Assembly (NCBI RefSeq): GCF_006716425.1
Contig: NZ_VFOZ01000001.1
Coordinates: 6,386,001 to 6,450,000, forward strand
Length of the DNA: 64,000 nucleotides
DNA from: Actinoallomurus bryophytorum
Lineage (GTDB): Bacteria > Actinomycetota > Actinomycetes > Streptosporangiales > Streptosporangiaceae
Direction: 5' to 3'
Position 1 is the stretch's first letter. Each line of letters starts with the position of its first letter. Both the position numbers and the translations under genes were made by a program. Below, piece after piece: positions 21,407 to 35,487 of this stretch. Below the pieces are notes generated by a model. It saw nothing but the letters and a program-made list of their open reading frames with translations, was not told where the DNA came from and searched no databases.

Positions 21407-21418
21407 GAGGGGCTCCTG

Positions 21419-22189
21419 TCAGCGGCCGAGCTCGGTGAGGAGGTCCTGGGAGAGGGCGATGCGGCCGCTCAGGCCGGTGCCGCCGCACAGGGCCAGGGCG
21501 GCGTCGGCCATCACCTCGGGAGGCTCGGCGTTCGGGTCGTCCTCGGTCGTCAGATGATGGAAGAGCGTCCCGGGCGTCGGCACGACGCGGTTCGGCGCCA
21601 GCGAGTTGACCGCGACCCCGTCGCCGTACACCTCGGCGGCCAGGCCGGTCGTGAACCTCTCGAGCGCGGCCTTGCACATGCCGTACACGGTCCCGCCGGC
21701 GAGCCGGTCGTCCTCCAGCGCCGGATGACGCGAGGCGAGCGAGGAGATGTTGAGGATCCAGCCGCCCTTGCGTTCGCGCATCCCCGGCAGGACCAGCCGG
21801 GCGAGATGGAACGGCGCGGTCACCTGGACCTCGAACATCAGCGCGTAACGCCGGTCCGTGAACTCGCCGACCGGCGTGAAGTAGGTGACGGCGGCGTTGT
21901 TCACCAGGATGTCGACCGGGCCCAGGTCGCCGGTGACGTCGGCGACGAGGGACTCACGCGCCGCCGGGTCGGACAGGTCGGCGGCGTACGCCCGCGCCGT
22001 GCCGCCCTCGGCCTCGATCTGGTCGACGGTCTCGCCGATGGTGCCCGGCAGGCGCGACCGCGCGGGGTCGACGGTACGGGCCGTCACGGCGACCGTGGCC
22101 CCCTCCGCGGCGAAGCGGCGCGCGATCGCCGCGCCGATGCCCCGGCTCCCACCGGTGACGATCGCTACCTTCTCGTCGAGAATGCCCAT
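21419..22189 (-). CDS. SDR family oxidoreductase (operon with exported hydrolase)
   Basis: A 256-residue classical SDR: TGGSRGIGAAIARRF cofactor motif, DILVNNAAVTYF, ILNISSLASRHPA and the active-site YGMCK. Similar proteins oxidise or reduce hydroxy/keto groups on acyl-CoA or steroid-like substrates. AAAGGA lies before ATG 22189. It is the first gene of a two-gene operon with the exported hydrolase and is divergent from the SDR/MaoC/PHP operon, sharing the 22263-22279 operator. Confidence 0.87.
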   Translation of the reverse strand: MGILDEKVAIVTGGSRGIGAAIARRFAAEGATVAVTARTVDPARSRLPGTIGETVDQIEAEGGTARAYAADLSDPAARESLVADVTGDLGPVDILVNNAAVTYFTPVGEFTDRRYALMFEVQVTAPFHLARLVLPGMRERKGGWILNISSLASRHPALEDDRLAGGTVYGMCKAALERFTTGLAAEVYGDGVAVNSLAPNRVVPTPGTLFHHLTTEDDPNAEPPEVMADAALALCGGTGLSGRIALSQDLLTELGR

Positions 22190-22232
22190 GAAGCGGTCCT
22201 TTCGTCGAGGCCGGGGAACGTCTCCCAGGGGG

Positions 22233-22279
22233 TTGACAGACGTTAACCCTTCAGAGACTTTTCTAGAAGTTCATTCTAA
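22233..22279. promoter_or_regulatory. Divergent promoter with operator copy 1
   Basis: TTGACA at 22233-22238 is a consensus -35; the -10 for the plus strand would fall at 22256-22262, touching CTAGAA-GTTCA-TTCTAA at 22263-22279. The same 17-bp pattern recurs upstream of 27434 and of 35366. Repressor binding here would block both divergent operons. Confidence 0.65.
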
Positions 22280-22291
22280 AAAAGGGAAGTC

Positions 22292-22375
22292 ATGAGCGAG
22301 CGGAGCGAGGGAATCGGCGAACACAGCGCTCTGGTCACTCCTCCGGCTAAGGAGACCTATGAGCGGGATCGTTGA
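22292..22375 (+). CDS. Possible 27-codon leader peptide overlapping the SDR start
   Basis: ATG 22292 is preceded by AAGGGAAG and opens a 27-codon frame beginning MSERSEGIGEHSALV and ending with TGA at 22373-22375, 14 bases past the SDR start codon in another frame. The SDR has its own AAGGAG site. The leader could couple or tune translation. Its opening GAGCGAGCGGAGCGAG is repetitive and resembles short 5' elements recalled from other actinobacteria, so it may be a mobile-type sequence and not a selected peptide. Confidence 0.4.
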   Translation: MSERSEGIGEHSALVTPPAKETYERDR

Positions 22376-23282
22376 AGGACGCGTGGTCATCGTGACCGGC
22401 GCGGCACGCGGTATCGGGCGCGGGCACGCGCTGGAGTTCGCCAAGCAGGGCGCCAAGGTGGTCGTCAACGACCTCGGCGCGGAGGTGGACGGCAGCGGCT
22501 CGTCGACCGGCCCGGCGGGGGAGGTCGTGGACCGGATCCGCGCGGACGGCGGCGAGGCGATCGCCAACGGCGACGACGTCTCCGACTTCGAGGGCGCCAA
22601 GCGGCTGATCGACTCGGCCGTCGAGACCTTCGGTGACCTGCACGTCCTCGTCAACAACGCGGGCATCCTGCGCGACCGGATGCTGGTGAACATGACCGCC
22701 GAGGAGTGGGACGACGTCATCCGCGTGCACCTGCGCGGCACGTTCGCCCCGCTGCGGCACGCCGGCGCGTACTGGCGGGCCCGCTCCAAGGCGGGCGAGC
22801 CGGTCGACGCCGCGATCATCAACACCACGTCGTCGTCGGGCATCTACGGCAACGCCGGCCAGGGCAACTACGGCGCGGCCAAGGCCGGCATCGCCGGGCT
22901 CACCGTCATCGCCGCCCGCGAGCTGGGCCGGTACGGCGTGACCGTCAACGCGGTCGCCCCGGCGGCGCTCACCCGGATGACCGAGGGGCTGGTGCGCTGG
23001 CAGCCCGGAAGCGAGCCACAGGACTTCGACCCGCACGCCGCCGACAACATCGCCCCGCTCGTCGTCTGGCTCGGCTCCGGCCAGGCCCGCGACATCACCG
23101 GCCGGGTGTTCAACGTGCGCGGCGGCGTGATCAGCGTTGCCGAGGGCTGGCGCGCCGGACCGGGCGCCGACAAGGGCGCGCGCTGGGACCCGGCGGAGCT
23201 GGGCGAGATCATCCCCGGTCTCGTCGAGAAGGCCGCGCCCAACGTCCTGCCCGACGGCCGCACTCCCGAGGACGGCAACTGA
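22359..23282 (+). CDS. SDR, 3-hydroxyacyl-CoA dehydrogenase-like (MFE-2 type)
   Basis: A 307-residue SDR with TGAARGIGRGHALEFAKQGA, NNAGILRDRM, NTTSSSGIYGNAGQGNYGAAK (shown in parts: active-site Tyr/Lys in YGAAK) and a C-terminal extension of about 45 residues. The NAGILRDRM motif and the extension are typical of the dehydrogenase module of peroxisomal multifunctional enzyme 2 and mycobacterial Hsd4A-like proteins, which oxidise (3R)-hydroxyacyl-CoAs. AAGGAG precedes ATG 22359. The MaoC hydratase gene starts one base after its stop, giving a hydratase-dehydrogenase pair. Confidence 0.87.
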   Translation: MSGIVEGRVVIVTGAARGIGRGHALEFAKQGAKVVVNDLGAEVDGSGSSTGPAGEVVDRIRADGGEAIANGDDVSDFEGAKRLIDSAVETFGDLHVLVNNAGILRDRMLVNMTAEEWDDVIRVHLRGTFAPLRHAGAYWRARSKAGEPVDAAIINTTSSSGIYGNAGQGNYGAAKAGIAGLTVIAARELGRYGVTVNAVAPAALTRMTEGLVRWQPGSEPQDFDPHAADNIAPLVVWLGSGQARDITGRVFNVRGGVISVAEGWRAGPGADKGARWDPAELGEIIPGLVEKAAPNVLPDGRTPEDGN

Positions 23283-23283
23283 C

Positions 23284-24129
23284 ATGGCACTCGACCACGG
23301 CGCGATCGGCGTCGAGTCCGCACCCCTTGACCGCTCCTGGACCTCCAAGGACGCGCTGCTGTACGCCGTCGGCGTGGGCGCCGGGATCGACGACCCGCTC
23401 CACGAGCTGGCCTTCACCACCGAGAACACCGGCGGGGTGGCCCAGCAGGTGCTGCCGACGTACGCGGTGCTGCTCGCCCAGGTCCCCGGCGCACGGCGCA
23501 TCGGCGACTTCGACCCGGCGATGCTGGTCCATGCCGAGCAGGCGTTCGAGCTGCACCGGCCGCTGCCCGCCGAGGGCACGGTACGCGCGACCTCGAAGGT
23601 CACGGGCATCTACGACAAGGGCAAGGGCGCGCTGGTCGTCACGGAGTCGACCGCGGTCGACCCGGACTCCGGCGAGCCCGTCATCACCTCGCGCGGCTCG
23701 GCGTTCATCCGCGGCGAGGGCGGGTTCGGCGGCGACCGTGGACCGCGCGACGAATGGGCGGTCCCGGACCGCAAGCCGGACCACCAGGTCACGTACGGGA
23801 CGCGACCCGAGCAGGCGCTCCTCTACCGGCTCTCCGGCGACCGCAACCCGCTGCACTCCGACCCGGCCTTCGCCGCGCGCGCCGGCTTCGACCGCCCGAT
23901 CCTGCACGGCCTGTGCACGTACGGCGTGACCGGCCGCGCCCTGCTGCACACGCTGGCCGGTTCCGACCCGGCGCGGTTCGCCTCGATGTCGGGCCGGTTC
24001 AGCAGCCCGGTGCTGCCGGGGGAGTCGCTGACCGTCTCGATCTGGGCCGACGGGGACACCGCGCTGTTCCGCACGACGAAGGACGACGGGACGGTCGTCA
24101 TCGACCGGGGCCGGGCGACACTCCGGTGA
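23284..24129 (+). CDS. MaoC-like (R)-specific enoyl-CoA hydratase
   Basis: A 281-residue double hot-dog protein. The N-terminal half (1-150) is a degenerate MaoC fold; the C-terminal half holds the hydratase-2 motif YRLSGDRNPLHSDPAFAARA with catalytic Asp and His, followed by ILHGLCTYG. It should hydrate trans-2-enoyl-CoA to (3R)-hydroxyacyl-CoA, the substrate of the SDR encoded immediately upstream. Length and layout match HtdY/ChsH3-like actinobacterial enzymes. Its stop overlaps the PHP start (GTGA). Confidence 0.88.
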   Translation: MALDHGAIGVESAPLDRSWTSKDALLYAVGVGAGIDDPLHELAFTTENTGGVAQQVLPTYAVLLAQVPGARRIGDFDPAMLVHAEQAFELHRPLPAEGTVRATSKVTGIYDKGKGALVVTESTAVDPDSGEPVITSRGSAFIRGEGGFGGDRGPRDEWAVPDRKPDHQVTYGTRPEQALLYRLSGDRNPLHSDPAFAARAGFDRPILHGLCTYGVTGRALLHTLAGSDPARFASMSGRFSSPVLPGESLTVSIWADGDTALFRTTKDDGTVVIDRGRATLR

Positions 24130-24764
24130 GACGGGTGCGGGTCGACTGCCACCTGCACACCGTCCATTCCGGCGACGCCGTCACGACCGTCGAACGGCTG
24201 GCCGCACGCGTACGCGAGGAGCGCCTCGACGTCGTCTGCGTGACCGACCACCACACCCTCGCCGGCGCCCGCGAAGCGCTGGCGAGGGAGATCGGCGCCC
24301 GTGTCGTCGTCGGCGAGGAGATTCGCACCCACGCGGGCGAGATCATCGGGCTGTTCCTGACGGAGCGCGTGCCGTACGTCCTGCCGCTGGAGGAGGCGGC
24401 GGGACGGGTGCGCGCGCAGGGCGGCCTGGTGTACGCCCCGCACCCGTTCGACGCCTCGCGTACGAGCCTGGGCGCCGAGGGCCTGGAGCGCCTGCGCGCG
24501 ATGGGCGCGCTTGACGTGGTCGAGGTCTTCAACGCCAAGATGGCCGAAGAGGAGGACAACCGGCGCGCGGAGCGCTTCGCGGCCGGGCACGACCTGCCGG
24601 GGGCGGCCGGCTCGGACGCCCACGACCCGTACGGCATCGGCGCCGCGTACGTGGAGATGCCCGACTTCGACGGCCCGCACGACTTCGCCGCGGCCCTGCG
24701 CGAGGGACGTGTCCACGGCGAGTTCCGCGACCACGCCGCGTATCCCGCCGGCCCGCGTACCTGA
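24126..24764 (+). CDS. PHP domain metal-dependent phosphoesterase
   Basis: A 212-residue PHP-fold protein: VDCHLHTVHSGD at the N-terminus, CVTDHHTLAG, GEEIRTHAGEIIGLFL, YAPHPFDASR and GSDAHDPYGIG supply the scattered metal ligands in the usual order. Such single-domain PHP proteins hydrolyse phosphoesters; the substrate in this catabolic operon is unclear. GTG 24126 overlaps the MaoC stop; GTG 24135 is also in frame. The last 24 codons and the terminator are duplicated at 26241-26353. Confidence 0.85.
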   Translation: MRRVRVDCHLHTVHSGDAVTTVERLAARVREERLDVVCVTDHHTLAGAREALAREIGARVVVGEEIRTHAGEIIGLFLTERVPYVLPLEEAAGRVRAQGGLVYAPHPFDASRTSLGAEGLERLRAMGALDVVEVFNAKMAEEEDNRRAERFAAGHDLPGAAGSDAHDPYGIGAAYVEMPDFDGPHDFAAALREGRVHGEFRDHAAYPAGPRT

Positions 24765-24774
24765 GAGACGACAG

Positions 24775-24807
24775 GTCCCCCACGTCCGGTTCGCGGACGC
24801 GGGGGAC
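24775..24807. terminator. Strong hairpin terminator between PHP and RTX genes
   Basis: GTCCCCCACGTCCG at 24775-24788 pairs with CGGACGCGGGGGAC at 24794-24807, with a single mismatch and a 5-nt loop. Serves the convergent genes on both sides; a second copy stands at 26320-26353. Confidence 0.8.
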
Positions 24808-24850
24808 TCCAGAGGGGGACGCGCCGCGCGCGCCCGCCGGTGACGCCGGA

Positions 24851-26137
24851 TCAGGGGCAGTTCCGTATGGTGTCCCCCGGGTCGGCGGTGCACGTGTCGG
24901 TGCCCGTCCCCTGGGCGCCGTCGACCACGTCGTTGCCGGAGACGCCGTCGACCGCGTTGAGGGAGTCGCTGCCGTTGCCACCGAACAGCCTGTTCGGCAG
25001 GTCGTTGCCGAAGAGGAAGTCGCCGCCCTGGCCGCCGGTGATGTTCTCGACGGTGCTGGCGACGTTGTCGCCCTCGTTGAACGCGCCGTCGTCGGCGCGG
25101 TCGTCCGGGGTCACGGCGACCGCGGTGGTTCGCAGGCTGTAGGACATCGTGTCGGTGCCCGCCTCGCCGAAGAAGACGTCGGCTCCGTCCGGGGTGGACT
25201 CGGCGATCGACTGGTCGTCGCCGTCGCTGCCGTCGATGCGGTCATCGCCCGGGCCGCCGACGATGACATCGTTGCCGGCTCCCGCGTCGATCTGGTCGTT
25301 GCCGGTGCCGCCCTGGAGGGTGTCGTTGCCGGCGTGGCCCTGGAGGATGTCGTCGCCGGCGCCTCCGTTGAGCGTGTCGGCACCCCCGACGGTGTCGTTG
25401 GGATTGTCGTCCCCGGCGAGACGGTCGTTGCCGCCGCCCCCGTTGAGGGTGTCGGTCCCCGCCTTGCCGGAGAGGGTGTCGTCGCCCGCTCCTCCGGTGA
25501 TGGTGTCGTCGCCGTCACCGCCGAGGAGGCTGACGGCGTCCGTGCTCGTACCGGCGTTGATGAAGTCGTCACCCGCGCCGCCGACGAGCTGGTAGAAACC
25601 ACCACCGCCGCTGTTGATCGTGTCATTGCCGTCGTTGCCGAGGATCTGCAGGCCGCCGGACGGGCTCCCGGTCAGCACGTCGCCGGCGCTGCCGCCACTG
25701 AGGGACTCCACGTCCGCGCCGATGGAATCGCCCTCGCCCGCCGCGCCGTCGTTGACCAGGCCGTCCAGGCTGACGTTCACCTGCGTCGTCCGTGCGCCGT
25801 AGTCCACCCGGTCCCGGCCGTCCCCGCCGATGATGGTGTCGGCGCCGTCGGCGGTGGCGTCGGCGACCACGAGATCGTCACCGGCGCCGCCGTTGAAGAC
25901 GTCGTTGCCGGGGCCGAGGCAGACGACGTCCGCCTCACCGAGCCCGGACACGACGTCATTGCCGGCCTCGGCCGAGATCACGTCGGGAAACTGCGTGCCG
26001 GTGATGGTGTCATCGCCCGCGGTGCCGGTGATGGTGACCGCCAGGCCGCCGCAGGTGGCCGCGGCGTGGGCCGGCGAGGCCGGTGCGGCGAGCACCCCCG
26101 TCAGCAGCATCGCCGCCATCAAACAGATCTTGCGCAT
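24851..26137 (-). CDS. Secreted calcium-binding protein with RTX-like nonapeptide repeats
   Basis: A 428-residue protein with a signal peptide (about 1-26, ending SPAHA) and many GGxGxDxx repeats forming parallel beta-rolls that bind Ca2+ outside the cell: LLGGDGDDTITGGAGDDTLS, LNGGGGNDRLAG, LQGHAGNDTLQGGTGND and others from about residue 40 to 410. Two longer non-repeat inserts near 130-160 and 345-375 resemble each other (RTTQVNVSLDGLVNDGA and RTTAVAVTPDDRADDGA). The tail has two cysteines (TCTADPGDTIRNC). Unlike type I-secreted RTX toxins it uses Sec and has no enzyme domain. AGGGGAG precedes ATG 26137. Confidence 0.85.
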   Translation of the reverse strand: MRKICLMAAMLLTGVLAAPASPAHAAATCGGLAVTITGTAGDDTITGTQFPDVISAEAGNDVVSGLGEADVVCLGPGNDVFNGGAGDDLVVADATADGADTIIGGDGRDRVDYGARTTQVNVSLDGLVNDGAAGEGDSIGADVESLSGGSAGDVLTGSPSGGLQILGNDGNDTINSGGGGFYQLVGGAGDDFINAGTSTDAVSLLGGDGDDTITGGAGDDTLSGKAGTDTLNGGGGNDRLAGDDNPNDTVGGADTLNGGAGDDILQGHAGNDTLQGGTGNDQIDAGAGNDVIVGGPGDDRIDGSDGDDQSIAESTPDGADVFFGEAGTDTMSYSLRTTAVAVTPDDRADDGAFNEGDNVASTVENITGGQGGDFLFGNDLPNRLFGGNGSDSLNAVDGVSGNDVVDGAQGTGTDTCTADPGDTIRNCP

Positions 26138-26240
26138 GGTTCTCCCCTGTGAGGGTTCGATACACCGGAGACGGTCCGTTCCCCAGGCGAGACGATCTCG
26201 CGAACCCTCTCCTTGAAGGGCGTTCCACCCCGTTCCATGC

Positions 26241-26587
26241 GCCCTGCGCGAGGGACGTGTCCACGGTGGGTTCCGCGACCACGCCGTGTACCCCACCCGC
26301 GTACCTGAGGAAATGACAGGTCCCCCGCATCCGGTGCTGCCGGACGCGGGGGACGGGCCACCGATGCTGTCACCGCCCGCGATGCCGGTGCCCGCTGAAG
26401 CCGCCGCGGCCGGTCAGGGCAAGGACGGGTGCGGCGAGCACACCCGCCGGCGGTATCGCCGTCATCGAACAGATCGTGCGCATGGTTCTCCCCTGTCCGG
26501 GTCCGGTACACCGGAGACGGTGCGTTCCCTAGGCGAGACGATCTCGCGGACCCTATGTCACAGGGGCGTTCCACCCCGTTCCATGCG
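26241..26587. repeat. Tandem duplication, collapsed unit
   Basis: Second copy of the PHP-end/terminator/RTX-start segment. The left part (26241-26353) matches 24693-24807, including the hairpin; the right part (26425-26587) matches 26082-26240, including the RTX signal-peptide codons and upstream region. About 1.2 kb of the RTX coding sequence is missing between them. Confidence 0.8.
26370..26483 (-). pseudogene. Remnant of the duplicated RTX gene
   Basis: ATG 26483 with the same GGGGAGAACC leader as the intact gene opens a 37-codon frame, MRTICSMTAIPPAGVLAAP and on, which matches the start of the RTX signal peptide (MRKICLMAAM) and then drifts out of frame and stops at 26370. The bases near 26362-26390 still resemble the first Ca-binding repeat codons of the intact gene. 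Confidence 0.75.
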
Positions 26588-26631
26588 CCCGGAGGCTCCG
26601 GCTCGTCCGGGGGTGCGAGCCGGAGCACCCG

Positions 26632-27264
26632 TCAGGGCTCTTCGTCCTCGACGAGGGGGTCCAGGCGGCGGATGAGGCGGATCGCCGCGGCGGCCACGGT
26701 GTCCGCCTCGGTCCTGGTCTCGCAGGCGGCGACCTCGCGGGCGGCCTCGCCGATCACGGTGGTCAGCACCGCGACGGTGACCCGGTCCACCGGATCGGTG
26801 CCGGCGCCCAGGAGCACGGCGTTCTGCCGCACCCACTCGCGGTTGCGCGTCCGGCGCATCAGCTCGAACCCCGGCGGCCCGTCACCGTCCATCAGCAGCC
26901 GTACGAGGTCGCGGCGCTGCCAGGAGCCTTCGAGGAACGCCTGCGCGCCGGCGATGAACAGCTCCAGCGGGTTGGTCTCACCCGCCTCCCTTAGCGCCGC
27001 GACCGCGGCCGAGGCGGCCTCCTCGTGCGCGTCCTGGTGGTCCTCCCAGAGCGCGAGGAAGAGCTCGGCCTTGCCACCGAAGTGGTGGTAGAGGCTCCCG
27101 ACACTGGATCCGGCACGTTCGACCACGTCGGCCACGCTCGCGTCCGCGAAGCCCCGCTCGGTGAAGACCTCGCGCGCCGCCGCCAGCATCCCCCGGCGCG
27201 TCTCCGCCGTACGGCTCCACTGCCAGGCGTTCGCGCTCGGGCGCGTGTTCGTCTTGCGTGCCAT
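26632..27264 (-). CDS. TetR family regulator, likely controller of the CoA-ester regulon
   Basis: A 210-residue TetR protein: DNA-binding region ASVADVVERAGSSVGSLYHH (about 40-60), with ligand domain LFIAGAQAFLEGSWQRRDLV typical of acyl-CoA-responsive TetR proteins. ATG 27264 gives MARKTNT; longer frames are rejected. It is divergent from the acyl-CoA dehydrogenase gene at 27434, with the 17-bp element at 27389-27405 in the gap, and the same element stands before two other catabolic operons nearby, so it is the best candidate repressor for all three. Confidence 0.85.
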   Translation of the reverse strand: MARKTNTRPSANAWQWSRTAETRRGMLAAAREVFTERGFADASVADVVERAGSSVGSLYHHFGGKAELFLALWEDHQDAHEEAASAAVAALREAGETNPLELFIAGAQAFLEGSWQRRDLVRLLMDGDGPPGFELMRRTRNREWVRQNAVLLGAGTDPVDRVTVAVLTTVIGEAAREVAACETRTEADTVAAAAIRLIRRLDPLVEDEEP

Positions 27265-27299
27265 CGAGATTCGCCTCCGCGCCGTCGTACCACTCAGAT

Positions 27300-27311
27300 T
27301 ACGGAACCGTA
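27300..27311. promoter_or_regulatory. Short palindrome upstream of the TetR gene
   Basis: TACGG-AA-CCGTA, 36 bp upstream of the TetR start, followed by TTCC that also pairs with GGAA. It could be a promoter-proximal autoregulatory site; it does not match the 17-bp element. Confidence 0.35.
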
Positions 27312-27388
27312 TTCCAAAATCCTCCCGCAGGGGTCCGCGCCCGTCCTTGCTGCTCTTGACACGCCCAGAGGGGAGGGGCACGCTGGTT

Positions 27389-27405
27389 CTAGAGTCACGT
27401 TCTAG
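27389..27405. promoter_or_regulatory. Operator copy 2 (best palindrome)
   Basis: CTAGAGTCACGTTCTAG, with flanking TT and AA, gives two TTCTAGAA-like 8-mers at 13-bp spacing. It lies 29 bp before the acyl-CoA dehydrogenase start. TTGACA is present at 27356-27361. Confidence 0.7.
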
Positions 27406-27433
27406 AAACTAATTCCCGTGGAGGGCCCGGCCC

Positions 27434-28594
27434 ATGGTGGACTTTTCGCTCAGCGACGAGGAGCGGCAGATCCGCGACACCGTCCGCAGCTTCATCGGCA
27501 AAGAGGTCATCCCTCTCGAGGACGAGGTGCTGCGCAACGAGCGCGCGGGCCGGCCCGGACTCGGCGCCGACGTGATCAAAGAGCTGCAGTCGAAGGCCAG
27601 GAAGGCGGGGTTCTGGGGGATCAACACCCCCGAGGAGTACGGCGGCCTGGACGCGGGTCCTCTCATGTCGGCCATCCTCACCATCGAGACCGGGCGCACG
27701 TTCGTGCCCTTCAGCTTCGGCGGCAGCGCGGACAACATCCTCTACGCCGGCACCGACGAGCAGAAGCAGCGCTACCTCATCCCGACCATCGAGGGCGAGC
27801 GGCGGTCCTGCTTCGCCATCACCGAGCCCGGCGCGGGCTCCGACGCCCGCAACATCTCCGCCCGCGCCGTCAAGGACGCGAGCGGCGACTGGATCATCAA
27901 CGGTGAGAAGACGTTCATCACCGGTGGCAACGAGGCCGACTTCGTCATGGTCTTCGCCGTCGTACCGGACGCCGGTGTCACCTGCTTCCTCGTCGACCGC
28001 GACATGGGCTGGAAGTCCGAGCCCATCCCGACCATGGGCCAGTGGGGCCCCGCGTCGCTGGTCTTCGACGACGTACGCGTGCCGAACGACAACATCCTCG
28101 GCGAGGTCGGCAAGGGCTTCGAACTCGCCATGGCCTGGATCAGGAACGGCCGCTTCATGATCCCGGCACGGGCCATCGGCGCGGCCGAGCGCCTGCTGCA
28201 GATGGCCATCGACTACGCGAACATCCGCCAGTCGATGGGCCACCTGATCGGGGAGTACCAGGCCATCCAGTGGCAGATCGCCGACTCCCAGGTGGAGATC
28301 GAGGCGACCAAGTGGCTCACCCTGTACGCGGCCTGGCGCGTACAGCAGGGCCTGGACGCCCGGCACGCCTCCTCGATCGCCAAGCTCAACGGTGCCGAGA
28401 TGGCCAACAAGGTCGTGGACCGCGTCCTGCAGATCCACGGCGGCATGGGCTACACCAAGGAGCTGCCGATCGAGCGCTGGTACCGCGAGCTGCGCCTGCT
28501 GCGCATCTACGAGGGCACCGACGAGATCCAGCGCCGTACGATCGCCCGCAACCTCCTGAAGGGTCACGTGCGCCTCGGCGGGATCGGGGAGTGA
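27434..28594 (+). CDS. Acyl-CoA dehydrogenase
   Basis: A 386-residue FAD enzyme forming 2-enoyl-CoA. CFAITEPGAGSDARNIS and IINGEKTFITGGNEADFV contact FAD, IRQSMGHLIGEYQAIQW and QIHGGMGYTKELPIERWYRE are conserved, and YEGTDEIQRRTIARNLL holds the expected catalytic Glu (360). GGAGGG precedes ATG 27434. The stop overlaps the start of the acyl-CoA synthetase gene (GTGA at 28591), so activation and first oxidation are made together. Operator copy 2 lies just upstream. Confidence 0.9.
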   Translation: MVDFSLSDEERQIRDTVRSFIGKEVIPLEDEVLRNERAGRPGLGADVIKELQSKARKAGFWGINTPEEYGGLDAGPLMSAILTIETGRTFVPFSFGGSADNILYAGTDEQKQRYLIPTIEGERRSCFAITEPGAGSDARNISARAVKDASGDWIINGEKTFITGGNEADFVMVFAVVPDAGVTCFLVDRDMGWKSEPIPTMGQWGPASLVFDDVRVPNDNILGEVGKGFELAMAWIRNGRFMIPARAIGAAERLLQMAIDYANIRQSMGHLIGEYQAIQWQIADSQVEIEATKWLTLYAAWRVQQGLDARHASSIAKLNGAEMANKVVDRVLQIHGGMGYTKELPIERWYRELRLLRIYEGTDEIQRRTIARNLLKGHVRLGGIGE

Positions 28595-30693
28595 CCCCGG
28601 CGCCGGGGGTCCGCGCGCTGTTCAACCCGGCCTCGATCGCCATGGTCGGTGCCACGGACAAGTCGGGCTGGTCGGTGAACACGCTGGCCAACCTGGACCG
28701 GCACGGCTTCGACGGGCCGGTCTACCTGGTCAACCCGCGTACCGAGACCGTGCACGGCCGGCGGGCGTACCGGAGCCTGAGCGACCTCCCCGGGCCGGTC
28801 GACCTCGCCTATGTCATGGTGCCGACCGCCGTCGTCCTCGACGTGCTGGAGGAGGGCGCGCGGCTCGGCATCCGCAACTACGTGGTGCTGACCGCGGGCT
28901 TCGGCGAGACCGGTCCGGAGGGGCGCGAGCTGGAGGGGGAGCTGGCCGACTGCTGCCGGGCGAACGGGCTCACCGTGCTCGGCCCGAACGGCAACGGCTT
29001 CATCAACGCCGCCACCTCCGTGACCCCGTACGGCCTGCCGATCCCGCCGCCGCTGCTGTCCGGCTCGGTCGGCGTCGTGCTGCAGAGCGGCGCGCTGGCC
29101 AGCTCCGTGCTCGCCTTCAGCCAGGCACGCGGCATCGGCCTCAGCCTGCTCACCTCGATGGGCAACGAGGCCGTCGTCTCGGTCACCGACGTGATCGACC
29201 ATCTCGTGGACGATCCGGCGACGAAGGTCATCGCGCTCTTCCTGGAGTCGGTCCGGCGGCCGGGAGAGTTCGCCCGTGCGGCACGCAGGGCGCTGGAGGC
29301 GGGCAAGCCGATCGTCGCGCTCAAGATCGGCCGGAGCGGGCTCGCCTCGCGTACCGCGCAGGCGCACACTGGAGCGCTCGTCGGCGACGACGCCGTCATC
29401 GACGCGGCGTTCGGCCGGCTCGGCGTCGTACGCGTGCGGTCGCTCGAAGATCTGATCATCACGGCGGGACTGCTCGCCTCGTCCGGGCCGCTGCCCGGCC
29501 CACGCCTCGGCGTGGTCACCCCGTCCGGCGGCGCCTCGGAGATCATCGCCGACCGGGCCCAGGACGAGGGGCTCGAACTGCCGCCCTTCGCCGAGGAGAC
29601 CGTCGCACGGCTCACCGAGATCATGCCGGAGTTCGGCAGCGCGGCGAACCCGCTGGACGTGACCGGGTACGTCGTCGTCGACCGGACACTGCTCGGCCGC
29701 GCGCTGCGGATCGTGGCCGAGGATCCGGGCATCGACGTCGTCATGCTGCTGTCGGACCTGCCGAGGATCGAGCCGCCCGACCCCGAGCCGGTCTTCCGCC
29801 TGTACGAGACCAGCACGCGCCTCATCGGCGAGTCGCCGCGGCCGGTCGTCATCGTCGCCAACGTGCTGACGGACGTCGGCGCGTTCGCGCGCACGCTCCA
29901 GGAGCGCACCGGGTACCCGCACGTTGTCGGCGGCATCGAGCACGGGATGTCCGCCATCGGCGCCGCCGTGCGATGGTCGCGGGCGCGAGCCCAGGTGTCA
30001 CCGCGGCCGGTGCCGGTGGCGCCGGTCGTGACCGGTGAAGGCACGGCCGTGACCGGTACGGGCACGTGGGCCGAGCATCTTGCGGCGGCGTTCCTCGCGG
30101 ACCACGGTGTGCCGGTGGTGCCGTCCGAGCTCGTGCCGGACGAGGCGGCCGCCGTGGCCGCGGCCGACGGGTTCGGCTATCCGGTCGTGCTGAAGGCCGC
30201 CGCCGAGGGGCTGGGCCACAAGAGCGACGTCGGCGGCGTACGGCTGGGCCTCACGTCGGCCGAGGACGTACGCCGGGCGTACCGGGAGATCCGCGCGGCC
30301 GCCGGCGGGATCGGCGCGCTGGTCCAGCCGCAGCGGCACGGCGGTGTCGAACTCCTGGTCGGCATCGTGCGCGACCCGAACTGGGGCCTGGTCCTGGCGG
30401 TCGGCCTCGGCGGCGTCTGGGTGGAGGTCCTGAAGGACTCCGCCTTGCGGCTGCTGCCGGTCGGCGCCGCCGAGGTACGGGAGGCGCTCGGCGAACTGCG
30501 CGGAGCCGGACTGCTCCAGGGCGCCCGCGGCACCGAACCCGCCGACCTGGACGCGGTGGCCGAGACCGTCGCCCGCGTCTGCGCCCTGGCCGATGGCCTG
30601 GGCGACGACCTGGAGTCCCTGGAGATCAACCCGCTCCTGGTACGCGGCTCACGGATCGAGGCCCTGGACGCGCTGATCACCTGGCGCACCTGA
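28591..30693 (+). CDS. ADP-forming acyl-CoA synthetase (fused alpha and beta subunits)
   Basis: A 700-residue NDP-forming acyl-CoA synthetase. Domains: CoA-binding Rossmann (about 5-130, ASIAMVGATDKSGWSV), succinyl-CoA-synthetase-like domains (about 150-450) with the phospho-histidine motif AHTGALVGDDAVIDAAF (His259), and a C-terminal ATP-grasp domain (about 475-695; YPVVLKAAAEGLGHKSDVGG, GVELLVGIVRDPNWG, LESLEINPLL). It would activate a carboxylic acid with CoA while making ADP from ATP, or run in reverse to make ATP. It starts at GTG 28591 within the dehydrogenase stop. Confidence 0.9.
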   Translation: MTPAPGVRALFNPASIAMVGATDKSGWSVNTLANLDRHGFDGPVYLVNPRTETVHGRRAYRSLSDLPGPVDLAYVMVPTAVVLDVLEEGARLGIRNYVVLTAGFGETGPEGRELEGELADCCRANGLTVLGPNGNGFINAATSVTPYGLPIPPPLLSGSVGVVLQSGALASSVLAFSQARGIGLSLLTSMGNEAVVSVTDVIDHLVDDPATKVIALFLESVRRPGEFARAARRALEAGKPIVALKIGRSGLASRTAQAHTGALVGDDAVIDAAFGRLGVVRVRSLEDLIITAGLLASSGPLPGPRLGVVTPSGGASEIIADRAQDEGLELPPFAEETVARLTEIMPEFGSAANPLDVTGYVVVDRTLLGRALRIVAEDPGIDVVMLLSDLPRIEPPDPEPVFRLYETSTRLIGESPRPVVIVANVLTDVGAFARTLQERTGYPHVVGGIEHGMSAIGAAVRWSRARAQVSPRPVPVAPVVTGEGTAVTGTGTWAEHLAAAFLADHGVPVVPSELVPDEAAAVAAADGFGYPVVLKAAAEGLGHKSDVGGVRLGLTSAEDVRRAYREIRAAAGGIGALVQPQRHGGVELLVGIVRDPNWGLVLAVGLGGVWVEVLKDSALRLLPVGAAEVREALGELRGAGLLQGARGTEPADLDAVAETVARVCALADGLGDDLESLEINPLLVRGSRIEALDALITWRT

Positions 30694-31026
30694 CGGTCGG
30701 CGGCCCGGCAGACCTGGACGGTCGCCCATTCCTGGGTCGCGGAGCCCGCGCGCCCCGCGCTAGGTGGTTCTCGACCCGCGCCACCGTGACGCCGCGAAGC
30801 GGTTGACCGGCCGGGGCGGCGTCATCGAGAACGCCGCGTCGACCATGCGCCTCGCCTCGTCCGGGTAGCGCCGGATCAGAACCGAGAGCTGCGACAGGTC
30901 TGCGATCCAAGAGAGTCCGGGCTCGGGTGGGGCCCCGTGACCACGTCTAGCAGGCTGCGATTCGGATGGCTGGAGTCGCCGCCCGTCGAGCTGGAGTCCG
31001 CTGGAGCCGGACATAAGGGGTCGCGT
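30694..31026. other. Intergenic region with a possible coding remnant
   Basis: About 330 bp. On the minus strand a frame closing at 30760 reads WIADLSQLSVLIRRYPDEA then RRMVDAAFS, which looks more protein-like than its surroundings, but it has no convincing start or ribosome site and no recognised family. The last 15 bp hold AAGGGG before the XRE gene. Confidence 0.35.
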
Positions 31027-31437
31027 ATGGAAGAGCCGCCGAACACGCCACAGGCGATCTGGGGGCGCGAGCTGAAGCACTACCGGAACCGCGCCGGGCT
31101 CACGCAGGCAGAGTTGGCGGCACGCCTCTACTGCTCGGACTCGCTCATCAGCTCAATAGAGACCGGGCAGGTCCCGGCGATGCCTGACTTCGCCGAGGCG
31201 GCCGATCGGGAACTCAGCACCGATGGCGTGTTGGTCCGTACGCTCGACTTTCGGAAGAACGAGCCCGCCTACCCGACGTGGTTCACGGCCCTAGGCGGGG
31301 TGGTCAGCACGCGCACGGACGACATCGCCACGGTCACTGCGTCTTGGGAGTCGATCAGTCGCGCGGCCCTACCTGAGGACATGTCCCGAGGCTTGATCCT
31401 CAAGACAGCAGAGGAGCTATGGGAACACCACAGCTAG
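31027..31437 (+). pseudogene. XRE regulator with DUF5753 domain, internally deleted
   Basis: A 136-residue frame. Residues about 12-65 are a normal XRE helix-turn-helix (HYRNRAGLTQAELAARLYCS, LISSIETGQV). Residues 75-95 (RTLDFRKNEPAYPTWF) are the start of DUF5753 and ESISRAALPEDMSRGLI is its end; the middle 120-130 residues of the usual 280-residue protein are missing without loss of frame. The gene may still make a DNA-binding protein. AAGGGG precedes ATG 31027. Its base composition is visibly less GC-rich than its neighbours, suggesting transfer. It overlaps the DUF397 remnant by 19 bases. Confidence 0.7.
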
Positions 31438-31526
31438 ACGACCTCGAATGGCGCAAGGCGAGTCCGAGCAACGACACAGGCTCGGCTTGCGTCGAGATCG
31501 CGGTCCTCGACTCGGACCGCGACTGA
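31419..31526 (+). pseudogene. Truncated DUF397 protein
   Basis: ATG 31419, with AGAGGAG upstream, starts a 35-residue frame with LDDLEWRKASPSNDTGSACV and EIAVLDSD, the N-terminal half of DUF397. The usual C-terminal half (LRDSKDP... W-X-X-F) is absent, replaced by a stop at 31524. DUF397 genes normally follow XRE/DUF5753 genes, as here. Confidence 0.7.
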
Positions 31527-31583
31527 CAGAGCCCGATCCGACGGGTGGCCCGCACCGCAGCCGGTGAGGGCCACCCCGGGGAC

Positions 31584-33680
31584 CTACTTGTAGCTCAGCC
31601 AGGTGCCGATCGGCCTGCGCTGACCGACGGCGGGGCGGTTGTAGTCACAGACACCCGTGCGGAACGTCGACCGCAGCTGCTTCTGCTCCTCGGCCGTGAA
31701 CGTGACCGGGTAGTCGCGGAAGTTCAGCGGCTTCAGCGCGCACTTCATGGCGTCCATCGACAGGCTCTCCCCGGCCGCCATGCGGGTGTTGGCGGCCACG
31801 GGGTACTTCGCCCCGCACTGCCCGCCGGCCGGGTAGGTGAGGGGTTCGCGAATGCGCTCGGTCGCCGACAGGTAGCAGCCGTCGCCCAGGTCGGACGGGC
31901 GGTCGGCGACGACCTTGTGCCGCAGGTCGCGGCCCGAGTGGTCGGCGTCGATCGCGGTCAGCCAGCGTTCCATGGCGCCGAACTCGTACACCGCCGCGGC
32001 GGTCGCCTCGGCGGTGGTCGGGTCGCTCTCGATGATGACCTGGTTGGCCGCGGTGCCGCTCGCGTGCAGCAGCCGCTGCCGCATCACGAACGACCACTCC
32101 GTCGTGTGGATGTCGTTGCCCGGCCCGGCGAAGTCCAGGTCCGTGCGCTGGTCGATGATCGGGGTCTGCCGCAGGCCCTGCGACGCCGCGTTGACGAGGT
32201 CGTCGGCGTACACCGTGTTCAGTGCCTTCGGGTCCGCGGCGAGGCGCTGTGCCACCGGCTTACCGGTGTAGTCCAGGCCGCCGATGGCGGTGTTGAGCGC
32301 GGTGAACTCGGCCGGTGTGATCGCCTTCGCCTTCAGCGCCGCCAGTCCGTACTGGACGCCGACGTTGTCCAGCGGGCTGCGGACGAACCCGGTACGCGGG
32401 TCGCGGCCGAGCTGGTTGACGAACTGCTCGTTGGAGTTGCACTTGACGCCGCCCGGGTTGGTGACCGGGTCCCAGCGCGCGGACACCGGGATCGCCGCGT
32501 TGCAGCTGTCCGTGGCCGTGGACCGGCTGGCGAAGGTCTGGTCCCAGGACACGCAGGTCGTGTAGTCGTTGAACCCGGCGATGGCCTTCTTCTGCGCGTC
32601 GGTGAACGCGGTGCCGGGACCGGCGAAGAAACGGTCCAGCAGCCGGCAGTCCGAGACCGGGCCGGCCGTGCTCAGCGGGTCGGGGAAGGACACGCCGGGG
32701 ATGATGCCGTCCACGATGCCCGGGTAGTTCTCGGCGATGTCGTACTGCTGGATGGCACCGCCGGAGCCGCCCCAGCCGATCGTGTGGGCGACCGGGCCGT
32801 ACGTCTCGACGAAGTGCTCCTTGACCATCATCGCCGCCTCGGCCGAGATGATCGGGCTGCAGTTGTTGTCCAGCACGTTGAGGGTGGAGGAGGCGACCGC
32901 GTAGCCCTGACCCAGGAACAGGTCGTTCAGCACGCCGCCGGTCCCGCTGCCCTGGTGGTAGCCGGCGTTGCAGCCTCCGCCGAAGGTGTAGACGAGCCGG
33001 TCGTTCCAGCTCCTGTCCGGGGCGACCGGGGAGGGCGCGGCGCCGTCGTACAGGGCCGCGATCTCATAGACCGCGCGGTCGATCGTGCCGCGCTCGACCC
33101 GCACGATGTAGGGCACCTTGGCGCCGTTCACCGTCGCGGTGGCCAGGTCCGCGGGGCGGCTGGACGGGTCGGCCAGCGGCGCGTACGCGCCCGCCGTCGT
33201 GCGGTACTGGTAGCTCACCTGGGTGGGCGCGGAGCAGAACGGCTGCGACGCCGCCGGCAGCCCGAACGCCTGGGTCTCGCAGTAGAACGGAAGCTGCTGG
33301 CGGCCGGAGAGCACCGGCCCGGTGATGGGGTGGTTCGTGACGCGCAGGGAGGCGTGGTCGCCGGACTGGCGGGCCTCCAGCGTGTTGGCGCCCTCCCGCA
33401 GGCCGCCCACCACCCCGAGGAGGCTGCCGTCGGACTGCCGGCGCAGGCCCGAGGTCACGTCGTGCCCGTTCGCGCTGACGGTCGTCGGCCGCGAGCCCGC
33501 CGGGACGACGCGGATCAGCACCTGGCCGCCGCTGACGAACTGCGGCCGGGGGTTCGAGACGGACTCGATGGTCAACCGCGAATGCGATGCCGACCCGTAC
33601 GCCGCCGTCGCCGGCAGCAGGGGCACCGCCGTCGCCAGTGCGATACAGGCGATGGCCGAACGCCATCTTCGATCTGCCAC
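31584..33680 (-). CDS. Secreted DUF6351 family protein (hydrolase-like)
   Basis: A 698-residue exported protein: signal peptide (about 1-30), N-terminal Ig-like domain (35-120), then an alpha/beta-hydrolase-like core with the nucleophile-type turn IGWGGSGGAI (Ser306) and a late MERWLTAIDADHSGRDLR segment, as in the DUF6351 family. Several conserved cysteines may form disulfides outside. An ester- or polymer-hydrolysing role is likely but unproven. GTG 33680 has GGAG upstream. It lies downstream of the DUF35/thiolase-like pair on the same strand, with a hairpin between. Confidence 0.8.
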   Translation of the reverse strand: MADRRWRSAIACIALATAVPLLPATAAYGSASHSRLTIESVSNPRPQFVSGGQVLIRVVPAGSRPTTVSANGHDVTSGLRRQSDGSLLGVVGGLREGANTLEARQSGDHASLRVTNHPITGPVLSGRQQLPFYCETQAFGLPAASQPFCSAPTQVSYQYRTTAGAYAPLADPSSRPADLATATVNGAKVPYIVRVERGTIDRAVYEIAALYDGAAPSPVAPDRSWNDRLVYTFGGGCNAGYHQGSGTGGVLNDLFLGQGYAVASSTLNVLDNNCSPIISAEAAMMVKEHFVETYGPVAHTIGWGGSGGAIQQYDIAENYPGIVDGIIPGVSFPDPLSTAGPVSDCRLLDRFFAGPGTAFTDAQKKAIAGFNDYTTCVSWDQTFASRSTATDSCNAAIPVSARWDPVTNPGGVKCNSNEQFVNQLGRDPRTGFVRSPLDNVGVQYGLAALKAKAITPAEFTALNTAIGGLDYTGKPVAQRLAADPKALNTVYADDLVNAASQGLRQTPIIDQRTDLDFAGPGNDIHTTEWSFVMRQRLLHASGTAANQVIIESDPTTAEATAAAVYEFGAMERWLTAIDADHSGRDLRHKVVADRPSDLGDGCYLSATERIREPLTYPAGGQCGAKYPVAANTRMAAGESLSMDAMKCALKPLNFRDYPVTFTAEEQKQLRSTFRTGVCDYNRPAVGQRRPIGTWLSYK

Positions 33681-33734
33681 TAGCCGCTCCGCTCACTCAT
33701 GGCACCGCGCCCGCGGTGCCGGAACCGGTAACAC

Positions 33735-33755
33735 CGCCCGCGGAGGCTGCGGGCG
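33735..33755. terminator. Hairpin after the thiolase-like gene
   Basis: CGCCCGC at 33735-33741 pairs with GCGGGCG at 33749-33755 over a 7-nt loop, in the gap before the DUF6351 gene. Confidence 0.55.
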
Positions 33756-33771
33756 GGCGTCTACCCCCGGA

Positions 33772-34920
33772 TCAGGACCGCCGGTTGCCGAGGACCAGAG
33801 TGGCGGCCGACATGAACATCCCGCCGTTGCCGAGCACCACGCCGACCTCGACGTCCGGCACCTGCGCGGCCGCCTCGCCGCGCAGCTGGCGGATCGACTC
33901 CTGCATCGCGAACATGCCGTACATGCCGGTGTGGGTGTATGACAGGCCGCCGCCGTTGGTGTTCATCGGCAGCCGTCCGCCCGGCGAGGTGTGGCCCTCC
34001 TCGATGAACGCGCCGGCCTCGCCGCGCCCGACGAAGCCCATGTCCTCCAGCCCGTAGATGGGGACGTGGGCGAACGCGTCGTAGATCATCAGGTGGTCGA
34101 CGTCGGCATGGGTGATCTTTGCGTCGGCGAACGCGGCCTGGCTGGAGAGCCGGAACGACCGCGACGTGGTGAAGTCCTCCATCTGCGAGATGATGGGAGA
34201 CTCCGCCGACTCGCCGGATCCCAGCACGTACACCGGTGGCTTGCGGGTGCCGAGTGCCTCGGCACGCTCGCGCGAGGTCACGACCAGCGCCCCGCCGCCG
34301 TCGGTGACCAGGCAGCATTCGAGCAGGTGGAACGGATAGGCGACGAGCCGCGAGGCGAGCACGTCCTCGACCGTGACCAGGTCGCGCATTGCCGCGCGTG
34401 GGTTGCGGCTGGACCATCTGCGCTGGGCGACCGCCACCGAGGCGAGCTGCTCGTGGGTGAGGCCGGTCTCCTTCATGTACCGCAGTGCCGTGACCGTGAA
34501 CGTGGTCGCCGGACCCATGGTCCCGTACGGCAGCTCGAACTGGCCCGGCAGAGAGTCCCGTCCGAACGCGCGCGGCGGAGCGCCGACCCGCGACCGGCCC
34601 GACTCGCCGTGCGTGATCAGCACCGTGTGGCACAGCCCGGCCCTGATCGCCGCCAGCGCGTGCCGTACGTGGAACAGGAAGGACGTGCCGCCGACCGACG
34701 TGCCGTCCAGCCAGGCCGGGGTGATGCCGAGGGCGTGCGCGACCTGTACCGGGCCGGGCGTGCCGACCGTCGCGACCCCGTCGACGTCGTCCTTGGTCAG
34801 GCCCGCGTCGGCGAGCGCGTTGCATGCGCCCTCCAGGTGGAGCTCGAACACCGAACGGTCCGGCAGCCGCCCGATCTCGTCGGTCTCGGCCGCGCCGACG
34901 ATGACGATGTCCGTGCTCAT
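33772..34920 (-). CDS. Thiolase-like protein without catalytic cysteine (Ltp2-like aldolase candidate)
   Basis: A 382-residue thiolase-superfamily protein of the SCP-x/lipid-transfer type. Where thiolases carry the acylated Cys, this one reads DGTSVGGTSFLFH (residues 72-84) with no Cys, and the C-terminal Cys-x-Gly region reads LGNGGMFMSA. The region GGGLSYTHTGMYGMF replaces the usual GHPxGATG. Loss of both cysteines is what is seen in Ltp2, the retro-aldolase of cholesterol side-chain breakdown that works with a DUF35 partner. The gene overlaps the DUF35 gene by four bases (ATGA), so a two-protein aldol lyase is the favoured reading; a structural, inactive paralogue is the alternative. Confidence 0.8.
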   Translation of the reverse strand: MSTDIVIVGAAETDEIGRLPDRSVFELHLEGACNALADAGLTKDDVDGVATVGTPGPVQVAHALGITPAWLDGTSVGGTSFLFHVRHALAAIRAGLCHTVLITHGESGRSRVGAPPRAFGRDSLPGQFELPYGTMGPATTFTVTALRYMKETGLTHEQLASVAVAQRRWSSRNPRAAMRDLVTVEDVLASRLVAYPFHLLECCLVTDGGGALVVTSRERAEALGTRKPPVYVLGSGESAESPIISQMEDFTTSRSFRLSSQAAFADAKITHADVDHLMIYDAFAHVPIYGLEDMGFVGRGEAGAFIEEGHTSPGGRLPMNTNGGGLSYTHTGMYGMFAMQESIRQLRGEAAAQVPDVEVGVVLGNGGMFMSAATLVLGNRRS

Positions 34921-35366
34921 CGCTCGCCCCCAGTGGCCGGCGCGGCGGCCGGCGCGAAGAGCGGCACGTGGACGTCGCCGCGCGGCTCGAAGACCACGCG
35001 TAGCGGCATGTCCAGCTCGAGGTTCTCCGGCGTGATCTCGATGCCTACGATGTTCGTCATCATCCGTACGCCCTCTTCGAGCTCGACCACGGCGATCGCG
35101 TACGGGCCGTCCTCCGCGAAGCCCGGCGCGGGGCGGTGGCTGATGACGTAGGAGTAGAGGGTGGCCCGCCCGCTGACCGTGACCCACTCGACGTCGGAGG
35201 TGCCGCAGTGCGGGCAGACCGGACGCGGATAGAAGTAGTGCCGCAGGCAGGCGAGGCAGCGCTGGACGCGCAGCTCTCCGGCGGCGGCGCCGTCCCAGAA
35301 CGGCCGCGTCTCGGGGGTCGGCTTCGGAATGGCCTTGGGGACCGCCGCGGGCTGGTCGGTGGGCAT
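34917..35366 (-). CDS. Zn-ribbon/OB-fold (DUF35) acyl-CoA-associated protein
   Basis: A 149-residue DUF35 protein: N-terminal helix ETRPFWDGAAAGELRVQRC, a rubredoxin-like zinc ribbon with Cys37, Cys40, Cys51 and Cys54 (CLAC, CPHC), then an OB fold (ATLYSYVISHRPAPGF, VGIEITPENLELDMPL). These partner thiolase-fold enzymes and bind the CoA part of the substrate. AAGGGG precedes ATG 35366. First gene of the operon; operator copy 3 lies 50 bp upstream. Confidence 0.88.
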   Translation of the reverse strand: MPTDQPAAVPKAIPKPTPETRPFWDGAAAGELRVQRCLACLRHYFYPRPVCPHCGTSDVEWVTVSGRATLYSYVISHRPAPGFAEDGPYAIAVVELEEGVRMMTNIVGIEITPENLELDMPLRVVFEPRGDVHVPLFAPAAAPATGGER

Positions 35367-35416
35367 CGTCGCCCCTTCTGTGGAGCTTTGGCACCCCCTT
35401 GGATGCGACGAGCATT

Positions 35417-35433
35417 CTAGAATGGTTTTCTAA
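35417..35433. promoter_or_regulatory. Operator copy 3
   Basis: CTAGAATGGTTTTCTAA, third copy of the 17-bp element, 50 bp upstream of the DUF35 start. Half-site spacing is identical to the copies at 22263 and 27389. Confidence 0.65.
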
Positions 35434-35444
35434 AAGTGTGCCAG

Positions 35445-35479
35445 CCCCGAGGCACGTCCGGTTCGGACACACCCCGGGG
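35445..35479. terminator. Hairpin after the sugar-porter gene
   Basis: Nested pairs CCCCG (35445-35449) with CGGGG (35475-35479), and GTCCG (35456-35460) with CGGAC (35464-35468). It lies just past the transporter stop at 35488. Confidence 0.55.
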
Positions 35480-35487
35480 CGGCCGGG

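Follow-up and report, generated by a model that had tools for sequence, protein, structure and literature searches.

A candidate local TetR regulon for acyl-coenzyme A catabolism, marked by a 21-bp palindromic operator, in Actinoallomurus bryophytorum

Three operators lie within a catabolic gene cluster

We analyzed a 64,000-nucleotide stretch of the Actinoallomurus bryophytorum genome (contig NZ_VFOZ01000001.1, positions 6,386,001 to 6,450,000, hereafter the window), in which a TetR-family regulator gene, tetR, lies among genes for coenzyme A (CoA)-ester catabolism and three copies of a palindromic operator. From left to right, the cluster holds minus-strand genes for an Abhydrolase_10 protein and a short-chain dehydrogenase (SDR1), operator 1, and plus-strand genes for a second short-chain dehydrogenase (SDR2), a MaoC hydratase and a CehA/McbA-like hydrolase, which overlap or nearly abut. 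Next come an RTX-repeat protein gene and tetR on the minus strand, operator 2, and overlapping plus-strand genes for an acyl-CoA dehydrogenase and an ADP-forming ligase. The last group consists of a helix-turn-helix protein gene, minus-strand genes for DUF6351, thiolase-like and DUF35 proteins, operator 3 and a sugar-transporter-like MFS gene (Table 1). An earlier, sequence-only reading of this DNA had placed tetR at 26632-27264 on the minus strand and the sites upstream of the SDR/hydrolase, SDR/MaoC/PHP, dehydrogenase/ligase and DUF35/thiolase-like genes, which is the arrangement we found; its 'PHP' gene kept its position and was refined in identity to the CehA/McbA-like family. The DUF35 unit probably reads through into the secreted DUF6351 gene as its end.

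Table 1. Operators and genes of the proposed regulon (window coordinates)
Feature	Position	Strand	Details
Abhydrolase_10 protein, second gene of the SDR1 unit	19919..21406	-	PF20091 7e-109; signal-peptide-like N-terminus, judged by eye
SDR1 short-chain dehydrogenase, first gene left of operator 1	21419..22189	-	nearest PRK08278, under family cut-off
Operator 1	22261..22281	.	TTCTAGAA-GTTCA-TTCTAAAA, between SDR1 and SDR2
SDR2 short-chain dehydrogenase	22359..23282	+	PRK07791, 436.7 bits vs cut-off 373
MaoC-type 2-enoyl-CoA hydratase	23284..24129	+	MFE-2 hydratase-2 N domain and MaoC; motif GDRNPLH
CehA/McbA-family (PHP-fold) metallohydrolase	24126..24764	+	NF038032 93.7 bits vs cut-off 80; PHP_C
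TetR-family regulator, 210 aa	26632..27264	-	TetR_N 1.9e-17
Operator 2	27387..27407	.	TTCTAGAG-TCACG-TTCTAGAA, in the gap separating tetR from the gene for acyl-CoA dehydrogenase
Acyl-CoA dehydrogenase, first gene right of operator 2	27434..28594	+	YEGT/FEGT motif
ADP-forming acyl-CoA ligase	28591..30693	+	CoA_binding, Succ_CoA_lig, ATP-grasp_5; AHTG motif
DUF6351, tannase-like alpha/beta hydrolase	31584..33680	-	PF19878 2e-228; signal-like N-terminus, judged by eye
Thiolase-fold protein, likely retro-aldolase	33772..34920	-	Gly at nucleophile position; YDAF motif
Stand-alone DUF35 (ChsH2 zinc ribbon and OB fold), first gene left of operator 3	34917..35366	-	
Operator 3	35415..35435	.	TTCTAGAA-TGGTT-TTCTAAAA, upstream of DUF35

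The same reading had described three 17-bp motifs, and these were present at 22263-22279, 27389-27405 and 35417-35433. The 17-bp core holds, while the fuller form is a 21-bp palindrome with AT-rich flanks, as seen in a position matrix of 78 sites that were picked at two or fewer mismatches and are hence biased to the consensus. That consensus is TTCTAGAA-N5-TTCTAGAA, from which every window copy departs by one mismatch. Operator 1 ends 77 bases before the SDR2 start and is separated from SDR1 by 71 bases; operator 2 ends 26 bases before the dehydrogenase start and lies 122 bases from tetR; operator 3 ends 48 bases from the DUF35 start.

We scanned the whole A. bryophytorum genome (9,466,640 bases, 3 contigs) for CTAGAR-N5-YTCTAR and found it in 3 places, exactly the three of the window, compared to 2 per strand for a reversed control pattern; 100 dinucleotide shuffles of the window gave zero matches. 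The 21-bp form occurred genome-wide in 3 places at one mismatch, none at two and 4 at three, and its control pattern in 1 place at up to two mismatches and 4 at up to three. The number of motifs by itself is thus near chance, and their significance comes from clustering: all three operators fall inside 13.2 kb, and each precedes a related set of genes. Based on the shuffles, the genome-wide scans and the 63 control palindromes described below, we rejected a chance repeat; the motif is not common at random genome positions, and on this check the claim of a regulon stands.

The operator accompanies the same genes and TetR orthologues in relatives

Two samples were examined, both centered on TetR genes: 40 stretches (39 from relatives and one around a TetR paralogue in the same genome) and 80 named loci, with G numbers denoting genomes and L numbers loci. 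Only the named set was used for the enrichment, matrix, motif and per-locus co-occurrence counts, and some loci of the two sets are the same contig (for example L042 and L082). Genes were called with a simple codon-score caller written for the analysis. In the upstream counts a site has at most two mismatches, a site between divergent genes was scored for both, and DHA2 pumps were scored as core.

In the 52 of 80 named loci whose TetR is at least 60% identical to that of the window, a site was found in 103 of 257 core-gene upstream regions, compared to 28 of 631 for other genes; the remaining 28 loci gave 7/69 and 2/354. When 63 control palindromes matched in base composition were run on the 257 regions, they matched 0.03 on average and 2 at most. 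Among spacers of 0 to 13 bases, only 5 was enriched, the next best reaching 4/257. Of the 80 loci, 37 carried both a site and at least two catabolic families, 7 the genes only, 6 the site only and 30 neither. Across 149 genomes, a site was present in 27 of the 34 that have a strong TetR orthologue, compared to 22 of the 115 that lack one; the control pattern gave 8/34 and 22/115.

The same genes recur in varied orders, often with sites at their promoters, in Actinomadura, Actinoallomurus, Saccharopolyspora, Amycolatopsis, Planosporangium, Nonomuraea, Microbispora, Streptomyces and Rhodococcus/Rhodococcoides. Operator 1 and its flanking promoter-like DNA are kept in three relatives (G003, G004, G006), equivalents of operator 2 lie upstream of the TetR and dehydrogenase genes, and operator 3 likewise has equivalents. 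Site ends are often only tens of bases from start codons across the named loci. Sites also occur far from tetR, on other contigs in two genomes: at a nearly complete gene set (L161 of G013) and at an SDR1-PHP pair (L171 of G075). Several of the 28 'other' genes with a site look like extra members (MFS transporters, aldehyde dehydrogenase, SDR and an electron-transfer flavoprotein subunit), as do, among the same 28, other acyl-CoA dehydrogenases and three proteins under their family cut-offs: a methylmalonyl-CoA-epimerase-like VOC protein, a YbgC-type thioesterase and an R2-like oxidase. One example of each kind was profile-scanned, a second MFS group being judged by eye only. Close kin carry additional secreted esterase-like proteins, and other relatives carry pumps. 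Collectively, the link of the site with these genes and with TetR orthologues holds across many genera, as expected of the local regulon that the sequence-only reading had proposed.

A TetR repressor is proposed to control the regulon

The tetR product contains a TetR_N helix-turn-helix and an all-helical ligand domain, by profile match and in a structure model with a predicted local distance difference test (pLDDT) score of 89.8. The closest solved folds to this model include EthR2/Rv0078 and FasR of Mycobacterium tuberculosis, at 21-27% identity; the operators and targets of both differ from those proposed for the window TetR. The recognition helix, SVGSLYHHFGGK, is nearly constant among TetR orthologues, and the palindromic site at the gene's own promoter is common to the proposed target genes. 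We therefore propose this TetR as the repressor of the regulon, probably acting through operator binding.

At five loci (L046, at 3632-3665, L115 and L117-L119), three TTCTAGAA-like boxes follow one another at 13-base steps and form two overlapping operators, which suggests stacked TetR dimers and cooperative binding.

Active-site motifs point to a CoA-ester pathway with aldol cleavage

The enzymes keep their motifs throughout the sequences compared. YEGT/FEGT, presumably holding the catalytic Glu, is intact in 41/41 dehydrogenases; GDRNPLH in 28/28 MaoC proteins; Y-x3-K in 29/29 SDR2 and 8/8 SDR1 sequences; and the AHTG His loop, which we take to carry the phospho-His of ADP-forming ligases, in 38/38. 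The CehA/McbA-like protein passes the NF038032 cut-off and may act as a carbamate or ester hydrolase. DUF6351 has an invariant GGSGG resembling a nucleophile elbow (51 sequences), and its weak fold matches are tannase, feruloyl esterases and MHETase, with template modeling (TM) scores of at most 0.33.

The sequence-only reading had guessed at an aldol cleavage, and the thiolase-like protein lends this support: in 34/34 sequences Gly-Gly stands at the place of the thiolase nucleophilic Cys, a column placed by reading alignments that include Ltp2, and YD[AS]F is likewise present in 34/34. The aldolases TcLtp2-ChsH2(DUF35) and CtSal-CtShy are alike in their thiolase fold, DUF35 partner, Gly at the nucleophile place and conserved Tyr of a YDxF motif (PMC12329534). 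They differ in having YDHF (Ltp2) or YDCY (Sal) where the window family has YDAF or YDSF, and the Tyr344 column of Ltp2 is occupied in the window protein by His, with a Tyr two places before. The place of Cys304 of Sal holds Ala or Ser and is thus not matched. Since the second catalytic residue is that of neither Ltp2 nor Sal, we filed the protein as an aldolase-like third variant; it is likely a retro-aldolase of a third type, with an uncertain proton donor. Its best solved relative, 4u4e, is annotated as a thiolase.

Homologues of the thiolase-like protein also occur on plasmids, from which six regions were taken (five from 30 of 201 records and one from another list), three of them unannotated. 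Two of the three annotated regions carry SDR/MaoC/OB-fold/thiolase sets, joined in one case by a P450 and in the other by an AMP-binding ligase; these three neighborhoods did not fix the substrate.

Proposed mechanism

Taken together, these data favor a local regulon in which TetR would repress tetR itself along with a CoA-ester pathway, to which we assign a probability of about 0.78. We infer TetR binding, repression, ligand and reaction order as follows. One or two TetR dimers would bind TTCTAGAA-N5-TTCTAGAA at the three promoter regions and repress tetR and four divergent or neighboring catabolic units. A CoA thioester of the pathway or the free acid may release TetR, a suggestion drawn from the acyl-CoA-binding FasR among the nearest folds. 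The esterase-like proteins and the CehA/McbA-like hydrolase would free an acid, the ADP-forming ligase would make its CoA ester, the acyl-CoA dehydrogenase would desaturate this ester, and the MaoC protein would hydrate the product to a 3-hydroxyacyl-CoA. The DUF35/thiolase-fold pair could then carry out a retro-aldol split to an aldehyde or ketone and a short acyl-CoA, the SDRs (and in some relatives an aldehyde dehydrogenase) handling the carbonyl and hydroxyl products. The gene families are consistent with the 'nearly full' side-chain cycle described earlier. The substrate is probably an ester-derived acid whose beta carbon is better cut by aldol cleavage than by thiolysis.

Several observations weigh against this scheme. 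SDR2 possibly acts as a dehydrogenase of 3-hydroxyacyl-CoA, a role that would suit thiolysis and not aldol cleavage, and a sigma-70 promoter scan over 20000-36000 found no promoter. The loci include near-duplicates (at least four Actinomadura and several Microbispora), and species are not independent. L096 and L122 encode TetRs 72-73% identical to that of the window, with the same recognition helix, and have neither an upstream site nor pathway genes in the fetched stretch. Seven gene-bearing loci lack a site when two mismatches are allowed; four of them have a site with three to four mismatches near tetR, and three, from Pseudonocardia, have none. Orthologue-less genomes carry a mean of 0.40 sites compared to 0.26 for the control, and within the family the numbers are 41 and 19. 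Finally, the motif is not exclusive to the orthologue group: good sites lie beside more distant TetRs in G023 and G055, and more than one related TetR may thus use this class of operator. These regulators, at L167 (6706-7333) and L074 (9210-9961), are about 51-52% identical, have sites with zero or one mismatch at their own promoters and adjoin other genes.

Alternative substrates and regulators

The substrate could be an aromatic or phenylpropanoid-type ester, from which DUF6351 and the CehA/McbA-like protein would free an arylpropanoid acid, to be shortened by retro-aldol cleavage to an aromatic aldehyde and acetyl-CoA. The likeness of DUF6351 to tannase, feruloyl esterases and MHETase would fit, as would the CehA/McbA-like hydrolase, the ADP-forming ligase and the operator-bearing genes for aldehyde dehydrogenase and MFS proteins of relatives. 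However, those fold matches are weak at the TM scores given above, DUF6351 occurs in 5 of the 80 named loci and hence is not core, and some relatives have pairs of distant acyl-CoA dehydrogenases instead, which fit bulkier substrates. We consider this particular substrate possible but unlikely; as broader classes, aromatic esters and bulky terpenoid acids are both possible substrates.

A steroid regulon of the KstR type, with genes for breaking down a steroid or sterol side chain, appears rather improbable. In mycobacteria (PMC1995591), the KstR regulon resembles the present one in its TetR repressor, its TAGAA...TTCTA half-sites, a divergent FadE-type gene and its role in CoA-ester catabolism, and differs in the 14-bp operator TAGAAC-N2-GTTCTA and in size, with 74-83 genes compared to three operators here. 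As the sequence-only reading had noted, the spacing is distinct, TAGAA-N4-TTCTA in KstR (PMC1995591) and N5 here; the window sites do not match TAGAAC-N2-GTTCTA, and identity with the KstR operator was rejected on this ground. With 8-base arms, the KstR spacer of 4 was found in 2/257 upstream regions, whereas the spacer of 5 was found in 103. The DUF35 and Ltp2/Sal-like proteins, MaoC and the acyl-CoA dehydrogenase do make up a side-chain toolkit, but the cluster's ligase is of the ADP-forming kind. The best 60 of 122 and the best 60 of 91 solved TetR relatives, in which no direct KstR comparison was made, do not name KstR, and the former name KstR2 at 6.6e-6; the absence of KstR from the 50 fold matches listed for the TetR model carries no weight.

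The KshA marker gave a mixed picture. A single strong KshA_C match (4e-89) is present in the A. bryophytorum genome, and KshA is commoner in genomes with the TetR orthologue (14/34 compared to 13/115 at E<=1e-80, a threshold of our choosing), yet the 20 kb around the A. bryophytorum KshA gene contain neither motif. At the same threshold KshA is missing from 8 of 13 regulon-rich genomes, including G003, which is 99% complete (G002 has a weaker match, 5e-30); the 13 were hand-picked for at least four enzyme families in the fetched stretches, with variant dehydrogenase-pair genomes excluded. The steroid nucleus is thus not the general substrate. As a substrate marker, KshA is neither required nor unrelated.

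Elsewhere in the same genome there are 4 exact KstR-type sites, and 11 places at up to one mismatch compared to 18 for a control, so they could have arisen by chance and are no proof of a separate KstR regulon. Two exact copies of TAGAAC-N2-GTTCTA, at L193 9281 and L194 9960 (C2:162780 and C1:1838959 of this genome), each have a near-copy at a distance of 2.2 or 1.4 kb, and one of them adjoins a P450 gene and a gene judged TetR-like by eye; given the larger number of near-matches in the control, these strings may be due to chance.

Binding of the sites by another regulator, either a paralogous TetR or an activator, with the adjacent TetR not cognate, is very unlikely: a 47%-identical paralogue at C1:1325110, similar second TetRs in many family members and the more distant TetRs that G023 and G055 have next to good sites could be read this way, but the paralogue's own 20 kb hold no site at up to four mismatches, genomes without a strong orthologue have the site as frequently as the control, though with more sites per genome, and a site placed like the middle one, between divergent genes, is common in autoregulation.

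Relation to known systems and significance

The proposed TetR regulon can soundly be called new and of a familiar kind, that of a TetR local repressor; a search of the open-licence literature showed no description of the regulon, motif or gene set among the matches listed, and one listed paper names DUF6351. The closest small TetR/DUF35/aldolase unit that we found is the KstR3 operon of Mycolicibacterium neoaurum (PMC10398937). This HBC operon (KstR3/Atf1/ChsH4) is likewise a small TetR-controlled unit with a stand-alone DUF35 and a thiolase-fold aldolase; it differs in acting on a sterol side chain and in comprising four genes, for aldolase, DUF35, reductase and regulator, with no ligase, MaoC or PHP gene, and the available part of that account shows no operator (PMC10398937).

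The regulon joins about ten enzymes, which many soil actinobacteria carry with family-level annotation only, as a single testable pathway under a defined switch, and would probably let the cell turn on breakdown of an acid or ester only when the compound is present. The operator and its inducible promoter offer a route to the substrate, since any inducing compound would be a pathway ligand or precursor. The third active-site variant is material for studying the change from thiolase fold to retro-aldolase, and DUF6351, a protein family with no assigned function, is placed in a pathway context. More tentatively, and at somewhat less than even odds, the data may reflect a previously undescribed acyl-CoA-sensing TetR subfamily with TTCTAGAA-N5-TTCTAGAA as its own operator class, controlling a portable, efflux-coupled route that is found in several actinobacterial families, degrades a single class of toxic ester-linked natural compounds and has a third DUF35-linked retro-aldolase variant (YDAF/YDSF) at its end.

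Other features of the locus

The RTX calcium-binding repeat protein (24851-26137), encoded between the PHP gene and tetR, has a signal-like N-terminus and gave zero matches in the 40 stretches. At 44046-44996 lies a DHA2 efflux-pump remnant with an internal deletion, which shares 48% identity across 159 residues with one pump of the group that bears operators in relatives; the remnant has no operator here. In Nonomuraea antri, an OtrA-like ribosome-protection GTPase gene (L100, 4167-6164; under the family cut-off) has an operator no more than 250 bases upstream, a pairing that may be coincidental, tetR being just beyond.

At 22292-22375, 67 bases that are extra compared to G004 and G006 stand at the ancestral start codon of SDR2 and begin with ATGAGCGAGCGGAGCGAG. 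They create a 27-codon leader open reading frame that overlaps the new start of SDR2, at 22359. A near-identical string, RTGAGCGAGCGNAGCGAG, occurs 13 times in the same genome, compared to 0 for the control, and the insert resembles a small repeat that enters at start codons and supplies a new ribosome site.

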